From: Planctomycetota bacterium
GTDB taxonomy: Bacteria > Planctomycetota > Phycisphaerae > UBA1845
Length of the DNA stretch: 64,000 bases
Assembly (NCBI GenBank): GCA_024280855.1
Contig: JAJRPG010000054.1
Span: 1 to 64,000, forward strand
Reading direction: 5' to 3'
A program made the translations under genes and the position numbers. Shown in pieces: positions 5,943 to 13,735 of the stretch. The number at the start of each line of letters is the position of its first letter. Position 1 is the stretch's first letter. The notes beneath the pieces were generated by a model, which saw only the letters and a program-made list of their open reading frames with translations, had not been told where the DNA came from and searched no databases.

Positions 5943-7505
5943 ATGACCGAGCTTAGCCAACGTCAATCAGATATCTCGACAACACTGGGCAAGAGGCGCT
6001 CGCCGCCATACTGTGTACTATGCCAACCTCGCGAACGGTATCTCGATCAAACTGAAAGATCGAACGTGTTGCGACGACTAACGCCCCTGGTAAATGATAT
6101 GGCCGACGCCCCTTCGGGTTCTAAAAATAGCGACCAACCAAGCGAGTCGAAATCGTCGGCTATTGTCTCCGCCCCTATCCGCCGCACCCTCTTCATCCTG
6201 GCTATCCCCGTCCTGGGCGAGCAAATGCTCAACGCGGCTGTCGGGACTTTTGACGTTTTTCTCGCAGGCCGACTTAGCCACACCGCGACCTCAGCTATCG
6301 GACTTGGCGCTTACGTCGCCTGGCTGGGTTCTATGATAGCTATGCTAGTCGGGACCGGCACGACAGCGCTCGTCTCTCGCTTCGAGGGTGCGGGCGACCA
6401 CGAACAAGCCAATCGTTTCGCCAACCAGTCCATCACCCTCGCAGCTATTGTAGGCCTGGGCATTTTTCTATTCATCTACTCCCTCGCCCCGTGGTTTGCC
6501 CACTACTGCCGCATGACCGGCGAGGCCTACACGATTACCGTGAACTATCTGCGTTTCGACGCTATCGGATTATTCTTCCTTTGCATCACACTCGTCGGCA
6601 GCGCCGCCCTTCGCGGGTTGGGCAATATGCGAACGCCCATGCTTATTTTCACGGCTATCAATTTGGTGAACATGCTCGTTTCTTACTTGCTCGTTTTTGG
6701 ACCCGGACCAATACCGAAGCTTGGCGTGACCGGCATCGTAGTGGGGACCGTTACCGCCCAATGTCTTGGGGCTATGTTGATGATAACCGTCCTTGCCCGA
6801 GGAACCACAGGGATCGAACTTCAAGCCCCCTTACTCAAACTTCGCAAGCTGGACGTGAAGCGCATACTCAACATCGGAACCCCTGCGGCTGCGGATGGCA
6901 TGATCATGTGGTCAGGACATTTTGTTTTCCTGGCTATTATCTCTCGTTTAGCTGCGCCACAGGAAAGCCAAATTCTTTTCGCCGCTCACATTGTAGCTAT
7001 TCGCGTCGAAGCTATCACTTATCTCCCCGCCGTCGCCTGGTCCACGGCTACGGCGACGATGATTGGCCAGTCGCTCGGCGCAGCTAACATCGACCGCGCC
7101 CGACGCATCGCTCACGAAGCCGTTTTTCAATGCGGCATTCTGTCATTGGCTGTCGCAGCTTTTTTCTACTTCGGTGCAGACCTGATTTACAATGTGATGA
7201 GCACCGACGAAAAAGTTCGTCTAGCCGGAGCGGATTCCTTCAGATACTTAGCATTTCTACAACCCATACTCGTCGTAGCTATCATTTACATCTGGGCGTT
7301 ACGCGGGTCCGGCGACACAAGATATCCGCTGCTAATCACCATAGTTGGCGTCAACATCCGTATCCTAACGGGCTATGTCTGCGGCATCGTATTAGAAGGC
7401 GGATTGCTCGGAGCTTGGATGGGCATGTTCGCCGACAACATATGGCGCGGGACTGCGGGACTCACGCGCTATTGCCGAGGGAAATGGGTTCATACGAAAG
7501 TCTAA
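5943..7505 (+). CDS. MATE family efflux transporter
   Basis: A 520-residue multidrug and toxin extrusion protein, with twelve hydrophobic spans beginning near residue 80. Family signatures include LAIPVLGEQMLNAAVGTFDV at the first helix, GLGAYVAWLGSMIAM, and the repeated half starting ILNIGTPAAADGM. These exporters expel cations or drugs using a Na+ or H+ gradient; the substrate cannot be read from sequence. The first 60 residues are polar and unlike the family, so translation may start at a later ATG (6099), but a G-rich ribosome site favours 5943. It is divergent from the PIN-TRAM gene. Confidence 0.9.
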   Translation: MTELSQRQSDISTTLGKRRSPPYCVLCQPRERYLDQTERSNVLRRLTPLVNDMADAPSGSKNSDQPSESKSSAIVSAPIRRTLFILAIPVLGEQMLNAAVGTFDVFLAGRLSHTATSAIGLGAYVAWLGSMIAMLVGTGTTALVSRFEGAGDHEQANRFANQSITLAAIVGLGIFLFIYSLAPWFAHYCRMTGEAYTITVNYLRFDAIGLFFLCITLVGSAALRGLGNMRTPMLIFTAINLVNMLVSYLLVFGPGPIPKLGVTGIVVGTVTAQCLGAMLMITVLARGTTGIELQAPLLKLRKLDVKRILNIGTPAAADGMIMWSGHFVFLAIISRLAAPQESQILFAAHIVAIRVEAITYLPAVAWSTATATMIGQSLGAANIDRARRIAHEAVFQCGILSLAVAAFFYFGADLIYNVMSTDEKVRLAGADSFRYLAFLQPILVVAIIYIWALRGSGDTRYPLLITIVGVNIRILTGYVCGIVLEGGLLGAWMGMFADNIWRGTAGLTRYCRGKWVHTKV

Positions 7506-8000
7506 TATCATAAAATGATATATGTGGCAGGCGGTTCAGCAGTCAACCCCGTGACACCGTGACTTCTCCCCGGAGCATCCGGGTTTATCCCTCATGATTG
7601 GCAGAATCGGGCTGCTGTGTTATGATGCACTGCTTGGATAGGTGTCGAAGCTCGTATTGCTACCCTACAATGCCGCGAATCGAATCACCTCACCCCGTAT
7701 GTACCGCCACATGAGCGACATATACCCGCAGGCTATGGTACCTGCCCTTAAGACGAACCGGCTATTGTATTCGTAGATAGTCGTGCCTGCGGATACACCG
7801 CGGAATCGGGGCGGTCCGTGACTCGCATCCTGCATCGTTGAAGGACGGTGGCCGCTGAATTTGGCCACTCCAGACTGTTCTGCACCCATCGTGTGATGGG
7901 AAATAGCTCTTCGTGTAAGATACAGGAACGGCTGGAGGAGGCTCGGCAGGACACGCAAATTACGGCCACGCTTTACATAAAAGAGAAGAAGGCAACCCAC
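7506..8000. other. intergenic region before lipid cassette
   Basis: About 495 bases without a convincing gene. A CCCGGA-gca-TCCGGG hairpin followed by TTTA lies near 7569-7587, perhaps a weak terminator for the MATE gene. Long frames exist on both strands in 7665-8033 but lack family features and overlap each other, so I treat them as chance. Confidence 0.45.
7569..7587 (+). terminator. possible weak terminator of MATE gene
   Basis: A six-base-pair GC-rich stem (CCCGGA / TCCGGG) with a three-base loop and a short TTTA tail, 64 bases after the MATE stop codon. The U-tract is too short for confidence. Confidence 0.3.
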
Positions 8001-8867
8001 ATGGTTAGAAAAAACGGTTCCAGGAGATATCATGGTAAAGAAAAGGTGTTGCCGTTGCTATTGGATTCATGTGATCCCGGCGATGGTTTGATTACCACGG
8101 CTCTTCTCTTGGCCGCTGGTGCAGGGACGCGTCTGCAGCCGCTGACGAACAAATCTCCAAAATGTCTAACTGAAGTGCATGGCATTCCCATTCTAAAAAG
8201 GCTTCTCTCTTGCCTGGTGGAGGAGGGTTTCAGGCGCTTGGTTGTTGTCGTCGGTTACCGCGACGCGCAAATCCGCGACTATCTGGAACGGCATTCATCC
8301 GGGCTTACGATTGACTTTGTGGACTGCCGTGAGTATGCGACGACGAACAACATCTACTCCCTTTGGCAGGCTCGTGAACAGATTCGAGAACCGTTCGTAT
8401 TAATCGAATCGGATTTGATATTTGATTCGCATCTGCTGGGCATGATGCGAATACGGGATCGTATCGCCGTTTCCCGCTTTCAGTCGCCCATGCTCGGTAC
8501 GACTGTCTCGATAAACGAGTTTGGGCGTGTTTTATCTTTCCGTGTCGGCTCCGATACCGGTGCCCCCGAATTGGGACATAAGACCGTCAATGTGTATAGC
8601 CTATCGAAGGCGACTTGGCTTGAGGTCGTCCGCCGGCTAGATCAGCGCATCGCCGCAGGTAAAGTGCATGACTACTACGAAGTCGTGTTCGCTGAAATGG
8701 TCTCCGAAGGTCAACTGGCGTTGCAATCGGTTCATTTTGACGAAGGACGCTGGTGCGAGATTGACACACTCGACGATCTCCGAACTGCCGAACAAATCTT
8801 TCTTGATCCGCGAGGTGCGTACGGACCACAGGTAGCGAAACATTCGCGCTCCCTGCGGGCATCATGA
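8001..8867 (+). CDS. CTP:phospho-head-group cytidylyltransferase (LicC/PntC/IPCT-like)
   Basis: A 288-residue nucleotidyltransferase. The binding loop LLLAAGAGTRLQPLT is at residues 35-49 with PKCL after it; TTNNIYSLWQA, the metal-binding ESDLIFD and a final WCEIDTLDDL follow. The NNIYS block is typical of enzymes that make CDP-choline, CDP-aminoethylphosphonate or CDP-inositol, not of ordinary sugar nucleotidyltransferases. I infer that it activates a phospho- or phosphono-alcohol with CTP. The frame is open from 7848, but the ATG at 8001 has GAGAAGAAGG at the right distance. Its stop overlaps the next start (ATGA), and the third gene is a CDP-alcohol phosphotransferase, which fits a CDP-activated product. 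Exact substrate is unknown. Confidence 0.8.
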   Translation: MVRKNGSRRYHGKEKVLPLLLDSCDPGDGLITTALLLAAGAGTRLQPLTNKSPKCLTEVHGIPILKRLLSCLVEEGFRRLVVVVGYRDAQIRDYLERHSSGLTIDFVDCREYATTNNIYSLWQAREQIREPFVLIESDLIFDSHLLGMMRIRDRIAVSRFQSPMLGTTVSINEFGRVLSFRVGSDTGAPELGHKTVNVYSLSKATWLEVVRRLDQRIAAGKVHDYYEVVFAEMVSEGQLALQSVHFDEGRWCEIDTLDDLRTAEQIFLDPRGAYGPQVAKHSRSLRAS

Positions 8868-9835
8868 TGGCGGCGCAACGTGCAACTGACCATTGCGAAG
8901 TCACTACCGCCGCAGAGACGCCGCTTCAACTCGATTACACGAAGGTCCAGGCGTACTGGAAAAGCGCTAGGCCGTCGATGCTCGGCCCCTACATGATGGA
9001 CGGGTTCGGGTTCCCCATCGGCGCCGGACGTTTTCGCTTTCGAGGCGAAGTAGAGACGGTCGCAGAAGCGACAAGAAACCTCGACCCTGACACGTCGGTT
9101 CTGGACCTGGGCAGTGGCGTAGGCGTATGGGCCGAGTATTTTGCACAACGCTTCGCAAGAGTGGTTGCGGTAGAGGCAAGCTCAACCCTTTACACGGCGT
9201 TGAAGGATCGATGCTCACCCTATCCGAACGTGACCACACACAACGGCGACGTGTTGTCCTTCGAGCCGAACAACGATCGCGCGGCCACTGAGGGGTTTGG
9301 GTTGGTTTTTCTCGGCGGCTTGTTGATGTACCTGAACGATGACGATGTTTCGACCCTCATGCGCAGGCTCATACCATACCTTAAACCGGGGGCAATCGTA
9401 CTGTGTCGTGAATCCACGATTCGCAAAGGCGTCAAAACGTTGCAGGGCGATTATCAGGTGGTCTATCGCTCAGTTGAAACATATCGGAGCATTCTTGTGA
9501 ACGCTGGTTTCGACGTCGTGAGCACACAGGCCAACAGCGCTTATATCAGCGTACAAATGGCCTGCGAACTTGTTAAGAAATGGAAGGCGATTGTGCCGGA
9601 GCGATTCCGATGTCTCCCAGTCGTCGGGCGCCTTGCGTACTGGGGGCTTCGCCTGGGCTACCCGTGGAACACGAGGCTGATCCCTTGGTTGCTGTCTGGT
9701 ATGGGATACGAGTTCCCGTCATTGACAAACCACTTCTTTGTTCTTCAGCCAAGCATACCTGCTGCTGCGGACCGGCCGGACGCGCAGGCGCACGATATGC
9801 AGCCCGCGCAAGAGAGGATGCAGACCGCGCGTTGA
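8864..9835 (+). CDS. class I SAM-dependent methyltransferase
   Basis: A 323-residue methyltransferase of the Rossmann type. The SAM-binding motif I is DLGSGVG at residues 81-87, followed by the acidic VVAVEAS (motif II) and later LVFLGGLLMYLNDDDV (motif IV region). A C-terminal extension ends in a hydrophobic LTNHFFVLQPS. It lies between a cytidylyltransferase and a CDP-alcohol phosphotransferase with four-base overlaps on both sides, so the likely acceptor is a head-group amine or the lipid made from it, as in phosphoethanolamine or phospholipid N-methylation. This is inference from context; other acceptors are possible. Base composition is GC-richer than the surrounding genome. Confidence 0.75.
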   Translation: MMAAQRATDHCEVTTAAETPLQLDYTKVQAYWKSARPSMLGPYMMDGFGFPIGAGRFRFRGEVETVAEATRNLDPDTSVLDLGSGVGVWAEYFAQRFARVVAVEASSTLYTALKDRCSPYPNVTTHNGDVLSFEPNNDRAATEGFGLVFLGGLLMYLNDDDVSTLMRRLIPYLKPGAIVLCRESTIRKGVKTLQGDYQVVYRSVETYRSILVNAGFDVVSTQANSAYISVQMACELVKKWKAIVPERFRCLPVVGRLAYWGLRLGYPWNTRLIPWLLSGMGYEFPSLTNHFFVLQPSIPAAADRPDAQAHDMQPAQERMQTAR

Positions 9836-10503
9836 ATACACCGCTAAAACTCCTCTACCGCAATCTCCCAAACGTAGTCTCGTTCGTTGGTGTGCTGCCG
9901 CTCGTCATCCTTCTGCGGGAGGAAGCGTTTATTTATCTCGGCCCGCTCATCGTCTTCAATAACTTCATGGATGATCTGGACGGGATTCTTGCCAAGAAGT
10001 TGGGCCTCTGTAGTGAGTTTGGCGCGGATTTAGACAACGTATGTGACGCGGTCGCGCACATCCTGATTGCGATGGTTGTCGGCTCTCATTATGGCGGAGT
10101 TGTGCTAGCCGCGAGCCTGGTATCGGCCATTGCGATTCTCATCCGCGTTGTTCAGCGGATTTCTCCGTCACACACGGCAAGCACCGGAACGCCGACGAAT
10201 GAGTTGATGCGCCACATTCTGATGCTGACTGCGCTCCATCATCTTTTTGGCTTCGACATTACTCCTTACCTTATCACCGCGTACCTTCTGAACTCGTTAT
10301 CTATGCTCGTCCCGTTCGCTATGCCTCACCTTGTCCGCACGAGAACCAAGTCGGCGACGGCGATCCTGGGGGTGAACGTGGCCCTTGCGGTAACTTGGTA
10401 TGCCCCGGTAACCGCGCCTTTGATGGCAGCATCTTTTTTGGGGACATATCTCTACTCGTTCGCGGTTGGCGCTGTCGGATGGCTCCGAAGGGCGAATGCG
10501 TAG
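9832..10503 (+). CDS. CDP-alcohol phosphatidyltransferase family protein
   Basis: A 223-residue membrane enzyme. The family signature DxxDGxxA(R)x8Gx3Dx3D is complete at D47, D50, G51, A54, G64, D68 and D72, except that the usual Arg at 55 is Lys. Several hydrophobic spans follow. The enzyme joins a CMP-activated alcohol to a lipid or polyol. Because a head-group cytidylyltransferase is encoded two genes earlier, the reaction is probably CDP-head-group plus diacylglycerol, as in the Kennedy pathway. I place the start at TTG 9832, which forms a TTGA overlap with the methyltransferase stop; the longer frame from 9580 would run inside that gene and has no family resemblance there. AGAGAGGA lies upstream. 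Confidence 0.8.
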   Translation: MNTPLKLLYRNLPNVVSFVGVLPLVILLREEAFIYLGPLIVFNNFMDDLDGILAKKLGLCSEFGADLDNVCDAVAHILIAMVVGSHYGGVVLAASLVSAIAILIRVVQRISPSHTASTGTPTNELMRHILMLTALHHLFGFDITPYLITAYLLNSLSMLVPFAMPHLVRTRTKSATAILGVNVALAVTWYAPVTAPLMAASFLGTYLYSFAVGAVGWLRRANA

Positions 10504-10624
10504 CGGCTCCCTGTCGAGGGGAAAGGGTTCATGCGAAGGTTTGTGAATTGGAATGCTTAATGATGCCGGAGCCTGACCGCGTGCCCGGCTGTCAACGCGC
10601 CTCACACTGCGAAATTATAATATC

Positions 10625-10653
10625 TTTGGTTTTAATGGGCATAACGCTATAAT
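10625..10653 (+). promoter_or_regulatory. sigma70-like promoter of DUF5678/retropepsin pair
   Basis: A perfect TATAAT at 10648-10653 with a weak -35 (TTTGGT) 17 bases before it. The ribosome site AGAAGG and the ATG at 10674 follow within 21 bases of the -10, leaving a very short leader. Confidence 0.45.
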
Positions 10654-10673
10654 AGACGGTAGAAGGTGACCAA

Positions 10674-10889
10674 ATGAACGATGTAGATTTTGCCTGGTTA
10701 ATCAATAACGGCCCACAGATATACGAGAAGTATGCGGGCAAGTGGATTGCTGTTCACGAAAGTAAAGTGGTTGGCGTAGGGGCAACAGCTACAGAGGCTG
10801 CGACTCATGCACGAAAAGCTATCGGGTCAGACGAATTTATTTTAGAAGCTGTCGATTCTGAGAGTGACGTCATCTATGCCGACCTATAG
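10674..10889 (+). CDS. DUF5678 domain protein
   Basis: A 71-residue protein matching the DUF5678 pattern I know: an aromatic N-terminal helix, then YEKYAGKWIAVHESKVVGVG, a helix (ATEAATHARKAIG) and a final strand. The domain has no established function. Genes of this type often precede a retropepsin-like protein, as here: the downstream gene begins inside this one. Ribosome site AGAAGG is seven bases before the ATG. The small size and overlap suggest an obligate partner for the downstream protein, but this is inference. Confidence 0.75.
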   Translation: MNDVDFAWLINNGPQIYEKYAGKWIAVHESKVVGVGATATEAATHARKAIGSDEFILEAVDSESDVIYADL

Positions 10890-12006
10890 TTGGCGAAGTC
10901 GCCCAACAAAACATTTCGGCGATACATACGTCCCATTTGCACAAGTGAGCCTCCGTGCCAACGATTCATCATTTCATGCACTGGCGCTACAAATTGACAC
11001 GGGCGCAGTGGTCTCCTTGTTAAGACAATCCATGGCTGAGCTTCTAGGCATTGAGCTTGAGTCCGGTCGCCGTGTCGAGTTGGGAAGTATTGGTGGCACG
11101 CAAACCGTAGCTTTTGTTCACAATATTTGTACGAAGTTTTGTGCGGACATCGAGTATGTAGTTCCCTATGCCATTGCGACGAATGAGATAGTGCCGAATC
11201 TGCTTGGGCGAGCCAACGCGATTGATACTTTGCATTTTGATTTCGATGGTACGCTACAGGAGACGAGATTGACTGCGCCTTGGCTATCACCTGAATCAGT
11301 AGTCATGCGAAATGCAGTCATTGATGCAGAGCAGTATATTTTAACTAATTGGCAGAAGCTTAAGTTTTCCGATGCCACGCAACGAGTTGCAAAATTGTTT
11401 ATCGATCGTGCCTGTCAATTATACGCTAGCGCCGAGTCGCTCATGCGAATGCACTGCACATATGGCGGACCGCTATTCGTTCGATCACTCTTTGAATTGG
11501 CTGTACAATATCAGTATTTGATGGATGATCCGGATAATCGTGCGAAAGACTACATAGATTTTTCACATATTACCAAATACCATGAGGTAAATGCCTCAAC
11601 GGCTAACCCTAGCGGTTCGGTTTCACAGTATTTGGCAACTCATCCACAACTTCCCCAGCACGTTGCAATAATTGAAGAAAATTATCATCGAGTACTGCCA
11701 CGATTTAAGCGACCAAATAATAGAGAACATATCAATTGGTATAAAATGGGTATTGCTAAATTGGCCGAGGAGGTCGGCTGGCTTGGCGAGTATAATCTAA
11801 TTTATAAATCAGTAGCAGGTTGGTCACACGGTGATCCTTATTCAACACAGCAAAAGACGAATATATTTAGCATCCACGAACAGCTTTTTACTTTTTGCAT
11901 GCATTACTATGCGAGAATTCTTCTAACTATTGCTGACAAGGGAATGCTCAATCTACCCCAAGAACTATACGCAGTGCTAAAAACGCTTAGTGCCGAATTT
12001 TCTTAA
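10876..12006 (+). CDS. retropepsin-like aspartic protease domain fused to DUF5677-like helical domain
   Basis: A 376-residue two-part protein. Residues 1-130 look like a single-motif retroviral-type aspartic protease: ALQIDTGAVVSLL carries the catalytic DTG at 41-43, and the paired LLGRANAIDTLHFDFD closes the fold. Such domains act as homodimers. The rest is helical, with FVRSLFELAVQYQYLMDDP and a late WSHGDPYS, resembling DUF5677, whose function is not settled. I start at ATG 10876 (GAGAG upstream); a GTG at 10864 is an alternative. Either start overlaps the DUF5678 gene. Composition is AT-richer than the cassette just upstream, suggesting separate acquisition. No other defence or toxin genes adjoin. 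Confidence 0.7.
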   Translation: MPTYSWRSRPTKHFGDTYVPFAQVSLRANDSSFHALALQIDTGAVVSLLRQSMAELLGIELESGRRVELGSIGGTQTVAFVHNICTKFCADIEYVVPYAIATNEIVPNLLGRANAIDTLHFDFDGTLQETRLTAPWLSPESVVMRNAVIDAEQYILTNWQKLKFSDATQRVAKLFIDRACQLYASAESLMRMHCTYGGPLFVRSLFELAVQYQYLMDDPDNRAKDYIDFSHITKYHEVNASTANPSGSVSQYLATHPQLPQHVAIIEENYHRVLPRFKRPNNREHINWYKMGIAKLAEEVGWLGEYNLIYKSVAGWSHGDPYSTQQKTNIFSIHEQLFTFCMHYYARILLTIADKGMLNLPQELYAVLKTLSAEFS

Positions 12007-12424
12007 AAAGACGAAGAGGGCCATTCCCCTTCTTCCCGGACATGGGGGGGTGTCGATGATTTACGCCCAGCATTATTCTCGCGCACTTGCAAAGATATGA
12101 CGCACCAGACAATTCGCTAATAACGATTCCCCCTGGCTTACCGAGCGGCGAGCGCTAGCGACCCGTGTCTTCAAAACGCTATTCACGTCACCATCCTGAA
12201 GAATATTCGTGATGATTATTATCAATCGAAGACACCGGGCGCTGGCGCTACCGGCTCTGAAAATGCGGGATAACCAACATTCCCTACTAAAGTAATTAAT
12301 CATTAGGAAATCAACAGAATATGCGTTAAAGTGTCTTTTTCGCTTGCTTTGGTACACAAGTTGCACAGCGAATATGGGATATTAGTGCGCATCGGCCAAG
12401 CCGATTGGAAACGAGGAATTAATC
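12007..12424. other. intergenic region, possibly degenerate
   Basis: About 418 bases without a gene I can support. A leftward frame at 12073-12366 has no recognisable features. The strand content shifts between AT-rich and GC-rich patches, which could be remains of a decayed gene, but I cannot name one. A GAGGAA ribosome site for the next gene is at the right edge. Confidence 0.4.
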
Positions 12425-13735
12425 ATGCCCAAGAAAAAAATTGACGAAACAAGCGTGGAGAGCGGTTATCGTACTCGCAGCCGACTTATTCATGGCCGAA
12501 GTCATTCTCACCGCTGGGACTACAACCATCATGTCATTCCGCCTATGACTTCCAGTGCTACTTTCCGACTAGATTCCGTGGAGCGTGGCGCCTTGGGCTT
12601 TTCCGAATTTGCGGGCACAGCTATGGAGTCTGAAGGGCATCACCCCATCTACATTTACGACCGCCTTGGCGAGCCAAACGGCGATATGCTCGAAGAAAAT
12701 CTGGCCATCGCCGAGGGTGGAGAGATGGCTTTGTGCTTTGCCTCCGGGATGGCTGGCATTGCCGCAGCTATTGGCTCGCTCGCGAAGTGTGGCGAACACA
12801 TTGTCGCCCACAAAATTCTCTATGGCTGTACCTATTCGCTGCTGGAAAACTGGCTTCCGCGATTTGGCATAAACCATACCTTAGCTGATATGACAGACCT
12901 ATCAGCTACGCGCAGCGAAATCACGCCACAAACACGCATCCTATATTTTGAAACACCCGTGAATCCCCATATGTGTTTGATCGACATTTCCGCAATGCGC
13001 GACATGCTCGACGACATTAACAAGACCCGCCCGGCTAACGAGCGGGTACACATGGTCGTAGACAACACCTTTGCCACCCCCTACTGCCAACGTCCTATCG
13101 AACTTGGCGCGGACCTTGTGTGCCAATCTCTTACCAAAGCCATCGGCGGGTTCGGGACAGATATTGGCGGCGCGGTGATTGGGCCCATGTCTATGTATCA
13201 CGACTTGATTATGTTTCGTAAAGATTTCGGCGGCGCACTATCGCCCAAAAGCGCCTGGCCTGTTCTCGTTCACGGCTTGCCTACCCTGTCCACACGCATG
13301 GCTAATTACCAAAAATCCGCGATGAAGGTAGCTAAGTTCTTAGAATCTCACCCGAAAGTCGAAAGGGTCTTTTACCCGGGACTGGAATCTTTTCCACAAT
13401 ACAAGCTAGCTAGAAAACAAATGCGAAACGACAAAGGCCGCTTCGCGCCAGGGTCCATGCTGTATTTTGTGGTTAAAGACGCGGATGATAAAGGCGAGCC
13501 AGCCACGAAATTAATCGACTGGGCAGCAACGCACGCCTACACCTTGACGTTAGCGGTCTCACTGGGACAGATTAAAACCCTCATCGAAGCCCCTTACTCC
13601 ATGACGCACGCGGCTTTGCCAGAAGACCTCAAGCGAGCGCGAGGCCTAGCGCCTGGCGGCATCAGAATAAGCATCGGGCTGGAAGACTGGCAGGATATTA
13701 TCGCTGACCTCGACGCGGCGTTGGCTCAGATATAA
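12425..13735 (+). CDS. Cys/Met metabolism PLP-dependent trans-sulfuration enzyme
   Basis: A 436-residue fold-type I PLP enzyme of the cystathionine gamma-synthase/beta-lyase/methionine gamma-lyase family. The PLP lysine is in CQSLTKAIGGFG; upstream are FASGMAGIAAAIGSL and YGCTYSLLENW for cofactor binding, and VVDNTFATPYCQRP is the family block around the PLP-binding Asp. C-terminal LAVSLGQIKTLIEAP matches the substrate-binding region. It would act in methionine, cystathionine or homocysteine metabolism. Sequence alone does not separate lyase from synthase here, so I give no symbol. The start has GAGGAATTA before it. A MITE-like repeat begins five bases after the stop. Confidence 0.88.
   Translation: MPKKKIDETSVESGYRTRSRLIHGRSHSHRWDYNHHVIPPMTSSATFRLDSVERGALGFSEFAGTAMESEGHHPIYIYDRLGEPNGDMLEENLAIAEGGEMALCFASGMAGIAAAIGSLAKCGEHIVAHKILYGCTYSLLENWLPRFGINHTLADMTDLSATRSEITPQTRILYFETPVNPHMCLIDISAMRDMLDDINKTRPANERVHMVVDNTFATPYCQRPIELGADLVCQSLTKAIGGFGTDIGGAVIGPMSMYHDLIMFRKDFGGALSPKSAWPVLVHGLPTLSTRMANYQKSAMKVAKFLESHPKVERVFYPGLESFPQYKLARKQMRNDKGRFAPGSMLYFVVKDADDKGEPATKLIDWAATHAYTLTLAVSLGQIKTLIEAPYSMTHAALPEDLKRARGLAPGGIRISIGLEDWQDIIADLDAALAQI

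Follow-up and report, generated by a model that had tools for sequence, protein, structure and literature searches.

A conserved three-gene cassette of marine bacteria and its possible role in Kennedy-like lipid head-group activation

In a 64,000-nucleotide stretch of DNA from a Planctomycetota bacterium (hereafter, the window), the genes for a nucleotidyltransferase (NTase), a SAM-dependent methyltransferase (MT), and a CDP-alcohol phosphotransferase (CDP-AP) were found to form one unit, and both the existence of this operon and its conservation are secure. As to its function, we consider the chances evenly balanced that it is a self-contained operon, disseminated by horizontal transfer, for a Kennedy-like route to a lipid, in which CTP would activate the head group and not diacylglycerol. 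Transfer of a CDP-activated amine head group by CDP-AP is well supported but indirectly so, and a methylated ethanolamine is our best guess for the head group.

Results

Organization of the operon

The three genes are co-directional, and each junction consists of a 4-bp overlap, as listed below.

8001..8867, + strand: NTase, a LicC/PntC-type CTP:amino-alcohol-phosphate cytidylyltransferase by family, 288 aa
8864..8867, + strand: ATGA overlap of the NTase stop and the MT start, read from the sequence
8864..9835, + strand: MT, with a phosphoethanolamine-N-methyltransferase-like core and a conserved C-terminal extension, 323 aa
9832..9835, + strand: TTGA overlap of the MT stop and the CDP-AP start, read from the sequence
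9832..10503, + strand: CDP-AP, a membrane protein of 223 aa (PF01066, orthologue alignment A6)

The NTase start at ATG 8001 was backed by the aligned N-termini of orthologues, and all close orthologues of CDP-AP align from TTG 9832; a longer CDP-AP reading frame from 9580 was thus rejected as an artefact. Pfam assigned NTase to NTP_transferase (2.9e-10), MT to Methyltransf_25 (5.5e-12), and CDP-AP to CDP-OH_P_transf (5.2e-10). Together with the overlaps and the NNIYSLW motif of NTase, in which N116, N117, S120, L121, and W122 are invariant (alignment A4), these assignments confirmed the three overlapping genes for an NNIYS-type cytidylyltransferase, a SAM methyltransferase, and a CDP-alcohol phosphotransferase read in the first-pass annotation. 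None of the three proteins reached an NCBIfam curated cut-off, and hence none is a named equivalog.

The gene directly downstream of the operon (window 10864-12006) encodes a retroviral-type aspartyl protease-like N-terminus and a DUF5677 domain in one protein.

Conservation and distribution

Scanning with the MT alignment yielded 57 loci, and 44 of these were testable in having room on both sides of MT. The order NTase-MT-CDP-AP on one strand was observed in 43 of these 44 loci of other genomes, an arrangement far beyond chance, and the separation of the genes that would have refuted the first-pass annotation was not seen. In the single exception (L063), NTase is missing beside MT and CDP-AP; this locus (1-1620) belongs to a Rhodospirillales single-cell genome that also encodes a PEP mutase fused to a long partner. 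No further gene recurred as a neighbour of the three-gene unit in the 57 loci.

Marine bacteria from seven or more phyla carry the cassette, the locus labels comprising Planctomycetota, Nitrospirota, Nitrospinota, Pseudomonadota (including two Hahella), Myxococcota/Deltaproteobacteria, Verrucomicrobiota, Acidobacteriota, SAR324, and one Scalindua (anammox) bin. Some of the bin labels are questionable: L072 carries the label Bacillota, but its contig is identical to that of G353 from the window's own phylum. Within the phylum the distribution is patchy (8/392 genomes sampled). Among 150 relatives of the window genome, eight members of the same family gave full or long matches to CDP-AP, and G109, from another family of the order, gave a short one at a contig edge; a tenth match (G103) was discarded as a different, inositol-type locus. 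The order and overlaps were repeated in most matching relatives, while the flanking genes varied. In G002, the operon is inverted within the same gap between a MATE transporter and a Cys/Met-metabolism PLP enzyme (L011 6516-12963 against window 5943-13735; same genus), and the counterpart of the downstream gene at 10864-12006 was not seen in L011 6516-12963.

The pairwise identities of the three proteins were correlated (Spearman 0.81, 0.73, and 0.75; permutation p 0.001), as expected if the genes travel together. The phyla were intermingled in the MT tree, with several supported mixed clades, which is consistent with horizontal transfer, bin contamination being possible in individual cases. 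No CDP-AP relative was found in either viral contigs or plasmids. At L051 7131-10245 (Nitrospina sp. LS_NOB), MT and CDP-AP are separated by an insertion that encodes a myo-inositol-1-phosphate-synthase-like protein, an IPCT-DIPPS fusion, and an HD-type protein.

Substrate pocket of NTase

A profile of 44 NTase sequences retrieved LicC (1jyk, 9.4e-26) and PntC (6pd1, 2.7e-21) as the best solved relatives, above the inositol/sugar nucleotidyltransferases. LicC was likewise the top PDB fold match of the AlphaFold model (pLDDT 84; E 3.1e-17, TM 0.88 to target), IPCT-type structures also being among the matches. The GxG(T/S)Rx4-8PK signature and the metal acids are present (GAGTRLQPLTNKSPK), and R44, K54, D138, E253, and D255 were found in 44/44 rows, the metal acids of LicC used for the comparison being D107, E216, and D218. 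A tree of the NTases with LicC, PntC, and IPCT was too deep, with long branches and few supported forks. The residues of the putative pocket are as follows.

8406..8414, + strand: E136-S137-D138; D138 corresponds in the alignment to LicC D107, the metal Asp, and E136 to PntC E104 / LicC D105; E136 and D138 in 44/44 rows
8580..8591, + strand: K194-T195-V196-N197 signature in 44/44 rows, common to the rhizobial and NTase-CobD-fusion relatives and not in LicC or PntC
8679..8681, + strand: E227, aligning with PntC E196 / LicC D192, in 44/44 rows

In PntC, Glu104 and Glu196 lie close to the AEP amine; the equivalent residues of LicC are both Asp, and LicC also has an aromatic box for choline (PMC6697681). 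The Asp/Asp arrangement of LicC was not seen here, both positions being Glu in 44/44 rows, as in PntC. Two residues ahead of the metal Asp, the cassette enzymes have E (44/44), LicC has D, and PntC has E; three IPCT-type enzymes have C, M, and M there, and two PEP-mutase-fused NTases likewise have a non-acid. In this acid the pocket resembles LicC and PntC rather than the inositol enzymes, so that the pocket match to a sugar nucleotidyltransferase which would have refuted the first-pass annotation was not seen, and the invariant E136 and E227 favour an amine-bearing substrate. Judging from the Glu/Glu pair against the larger Asp/Asp pocket of LicC, the substrate is perhaps smaller than phosphocholine, and K194 and N197, with K194 as a putative pocket Lys, might read a carboxylate.

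K194 and N197 are also present in NTase relatives from rhizobia, Rahnella, Priestia, and Fusobacterium. On named plasmids these relatives often adjoin a CDP-AP, and on two rhizobial plasmids the relative is grouped with aepX, an aminotransferase, and a CDP-AP. The Rahnella relative is fused to a CobD-like domain (threonine-phosphate decarboxylase family) and followed by a CDP-AP, and those of Priestia and Fusobacterium are fused to a PLP domain. These PEP-mutase and CobD-fusion contexts point to amino-alcohol or amino-acid phosphates or phosphonates, and the plasmid-borne relatives partly favour phosphonates, against the ethanolamine-phosphate reading. The rhizobial plasmid loci L106 600-7354, L117 2655-6358, and L105 4746-9136 hold a PEP mutase, an aminotransferase, a LicC/PntC-like NTase, and a CDP-AP (broken in L105), with no phosphonopyruvate decarboxylase annotated, and may encode a phosphonoalanine lipid or conjugate pathway. 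LicC-type NTase-PLP-domain fusions (CobD-like where tested) were seen at L112 5947-8425, L115 4959-6782, L113 5965-7797, and L120 152-1975, and are candidate one-protein makers of CDP-amino-alcohols.

Relationship of MT to phosphoethanolamine methyltransferases

A profile of 43 MT sequences matched the plant phosphoethanolamine methyltransferases (PMTs) 5wp5 (4.7e-27) and 5wp4 (3.2e-26) and the nematode PMTs (3e-18 and 7.6e-13), the next unrelated family being KsgA (1.4e-12). The fold search was unspecific, FPP methyltransferases and NTMT1 outranking the PMTs, and identification of MT from the fold alone was consequently dropped. Two motifs are shared with the PMTs.

9320..9334, + strand: LLMYL motif, also found in plant and nematode PMTs, in their first domain; M155 and Y156 in 43/43 rows
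9407..9415, + strand: R182-E183-S184 (RES) motif, common to PMT first domains

A YR motif is also common to MT and the first domain of plant PMTs. The Asp128/His132 pair of PfPMT is not conserved, being replaced by Gly/Tyr in a hand alignment, and the PMT His position corresponds to Y156, as in the plant and nematode first domains; of the ligand set compared (PvPMT Y16, H129, Y24, Y157, R176, and Y178), only this His position could be mapped safely at such distance. MT is thus PMT-like in its sequence, with a distinctive and conserved C-terminal extension, and a phospho-base is its predicted substrate.

Loss and decay of MT

In G404 (91% complete), NTase and CDP-AP are intact and no MT was found anywhere. 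MT is reduced to a 39-residue remnant in G386, lacks its middle in L075/G560, and is frameshifted in G353. As G404, G386, and G353 belong to one family, these cases, all from draft bins, represent perhaps one or two events of loss in addition to L075. The persistence of NTase and CDP-AP where MT is lost indicates that a methylated head group is not obligatory; if the losses are real, the two enzymes work without methylation, which suits an NTase accepting the unmethylated amine.

An XRE-type regulator-like gene lies ahead of NTase in one planctomycete family whose MT is lost or carries a frameshift (L087 4656-5999, L088 1622-3004, and L086 9052-10395). In G022 (L015 8332-9869), a decayed copy has all three genes broken, one deletion fusing NTase to mid-MT and another fusing the MT end to CDP-AP.

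Signature of CDP-AP

The solved relatives of CDP-AP were distant class I enzymes only, and its signature deviates from the usual one.

9970..10047, + strand: CDP-AP signature D47xxD50G51xxA54...G64xxxD68xxxD72; D/G/A positions in 47/47 rows, the usual 'AR' Arg replaced

All four metal aspartates were present in 47/47 rows. The 'AR' arginine was found in 0/47, position 55 being A, K, G, T, I, V, or N, and K56 was found in 39/47. Eukaryotic class II enzymes (CHPT1/CEPT1) carry the catalytic Glu and His of the G2ExxD3H motif, E129 and H133 (PMC10182977), and these are replaced here by A65 (46/47, S in one) and N69 (47/47). That CDP-AP would take a polar CDP donor was deduced from its operon partner.

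Supply genes in cassette genomes

The search for supply genes covered Psd, PEP mutase, MIPS, choline kinase, and Pcs. Psd was detected in all 30 genome sets searched, which represent 29 genomes (G532 duplicates G002). PEP mutase exceeded the cut-off in 7/30 and 2/27 genome sets, or 9 of about 51 genomes after de-duplication. None was found in the window genome (G000, 96% complete), whose sole relative of the enzyme lacks the EDKx5NS motif, and the MT-less or MT-damaged G404, G386, and G353 gave no match at all; since the Mesorhizobium enzyme passed the cut-off and has the motif, the threshold appeared sensible. MIPS was found in 8/29 genomes and not in the window genome, choline kinase (PF01633) exceeded the cut-off in 1/29, and Pcs was found in 0/32.

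These counts for choline kinase, MIPS, and PEP mutase leave the kinase-dependent, inositol, and phosphonate versions of the pathway without supply genes, and a route fed by choline kinase was rejected on the PF01633 count. CobD, considered as a source gene for ethanolamine phosphate, was uninformative, since matches to HisC paralogues occur everywhere. The supply genes searched revealed no obvious origin for ethanolamine phosphate, and it is here that the preferred reading is weakest.

Discussion

Proposed pathway and alternatives

Upon the established genes, families, invariant residues, gene order, co-inheritance, and MT-only loss, we infer a substrate, an acceptor, a stage and number of methylations, and a product. 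NTase would convert CTP and a small phosphorylated amino alcohol, likeliest ethanolamine phosphate and/or its N-methyl forms, to a CDP-amino-alcohol, from which CDP-AP would transfer the phospho-amino-alcohol onto a lipid alcohol, most likely diacylglycerol, with release of CMP. MT would N-methylate the amino group in a dispensable step, acting most likely on the phospho-base or the CDP derivative, and the product would be mono- or dimethyl-PE or phosphatidylcholine. The CDP-activated, methylated lipid head group of the first-pass annotation is partly supported: the data favour a soluble CDP-alcohol formed by an amine-type cytidylyltransferase and handed to a CDP-AP, with MT in one operon with both, whereas methylation is not obligatory, MT being lost in some lineages. 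We tentatively suggest, as a possibility we would not yet rely on, that the cassette represents one more way for bacteria to make phosphatidylcholine or partly methylated relatives of it, combining de novo phospho-base N-methylation, LicC-type activation, and an AR-less CDP-AP in a multi-phylum three-gene unit.

The possible reading of a carboxylate by Lys led us to retain O-phosphoserine, or a similar amino-acid phosphate, as a rival substrate, which would pass through CDP-serine to a lipid, with MT methylating either the amino acid or what its decarboxylation yields. Being a housekeeping metabolite, phosphoserine would pose no problem of supply; moreover, the invariant K194/N197 is common to the CobD-like fusions and to the PEP mutase-aminotransferase operons that have no annotated phosphonopyruvate decarboxylase. 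This substrate nevertheless seems unlikely to us, as the cassette contains no decarboxylase and MT resembles enzymes acting on ethanolamine phosphates. It is also distinctly unlikely that MT is a PmtA-like N-methyltransferase of the finished lipid, or modifies something unrelated: its sequence profile strongly favours the soluble PMTs and its position is always between NTase and CDP-AP, although its dispensability in some lineages, unspecific fold match, and distinctive C-terminal extension would accord with such a role.

A phosphonolipid, whose 2-aminoethylphosphonate or phosphonoalanine would come from elsewhere in the cell or from seawater by uptake, would accord with the PntC-like Glu/Glu pair and the NTase relatives standing with CDP-AP in aepX operons. 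The scarcity of PEP mutase described above, down to the motif-less relative in the window genome and the empty searches of G404, G386, and G353, makes it very unlikely; a phosphonolipid made with the cell's own PEP mutase was rejected, the gene being absent from G000 and about 42 of 51 cassette genomes, and the phosphonolipid branch of the first-pass annotation is accordingly disfavoured. Hardly probable at all is a sugar or inositol nucleotide pathway, in which NTase would supply a CDP-polyol to CDP-AP, as happens in di-myo-inositol phosphate synthesis. The fold matches include IPCT-type structures, IPCT-CDP-AP fusions exist, and a MIPS/IPCT-DIPPS set lies inside the L051 cassette; however, IPCT lacks the acid two residues before the metal Asp, MIPS is infrequent and missing from the window genome, and L051 has its IPCT-DIPPS as a separate protein, and on these grounds this route was set aside.

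Relation to known systems

To our knowledge, eukaryote-style activation of the head group for lipids is not generally known in bacteria, and our literature search found no paper joining CDP-alcohol phosphatidyltransferase, phosphocholine cytidylyltransferase, methyltransferase, and bacteria. Bacterial phosphatidylcholine has been credited to Pcs, PmtA, and GPC acylation, in addition to the unusual CDP-choline pathway of Treponema denticola (PMC8590670, PMC10434233), which employs a fusion of choline kinase and LicC (LicCA) and CPT (PMC8590670). Likened by enzyme types, the latter is the closest described bacterial case, likewise pairing a LicC-type cytidylyltransferase with a CDP-alcohol phosphotransferase, whereas here no choline kinase was found in the PF01633 search and an MT gene lies between the two enzymes instead. 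Lic-1 (licABCD) has the LicC-type NTase in common, but neither LicA, LicB, nor LicD adjoins the cassette in the 57 loci, and the transferase here is a membrane CDP-AP.

PntC and the rhizobial operons of aepX, aminotransferase, NTase, and CDP-AP share a homologous NTase, the Glu/Glu amine side, and, in several plasmids, a CDP-AP partner. In contrast to them, the cassette has no PEP mutase or aminotransferase, and the rhizobial CDP-AP is PssA-like and was missed by the cassette CDP-AP profile. The plant, nematode, and Plasmodium PMTs are the closest solved relatives of MT, with LLMYL and RES of the first domain in common, but MT is a single-domain protein with a C-terminal extension, is encoded in a bacterial operon, and does not keep Asp128/His132 of PfPMT. 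As in the eukaryotic Kennedy pathway (CEPT1/CHPT1), the CDP would be on the head group and not on diacylglycerol, whereas NTase is of the NTP_transferase fold family and CDP-AP lacks both E129/H133, the pair defining eukaryotic CDP-APs, and the AR Arg. Our best reading is that the cassette works like the Kennedy pathway with enzymes that are not members of the eukaryotic families.

If this is true, a mobile, kinase-free CDP-head-group cassette would change the reading of environmental lipid head groups for hosts such as Planctomycetota, Nitrospirota, Nitrospinota, the anammox Scalindua bin, and marine Pseudomonadota. The cassette offers a defined three-gene test of this reading, and Hahella ganghwensis is a cultured carrier.
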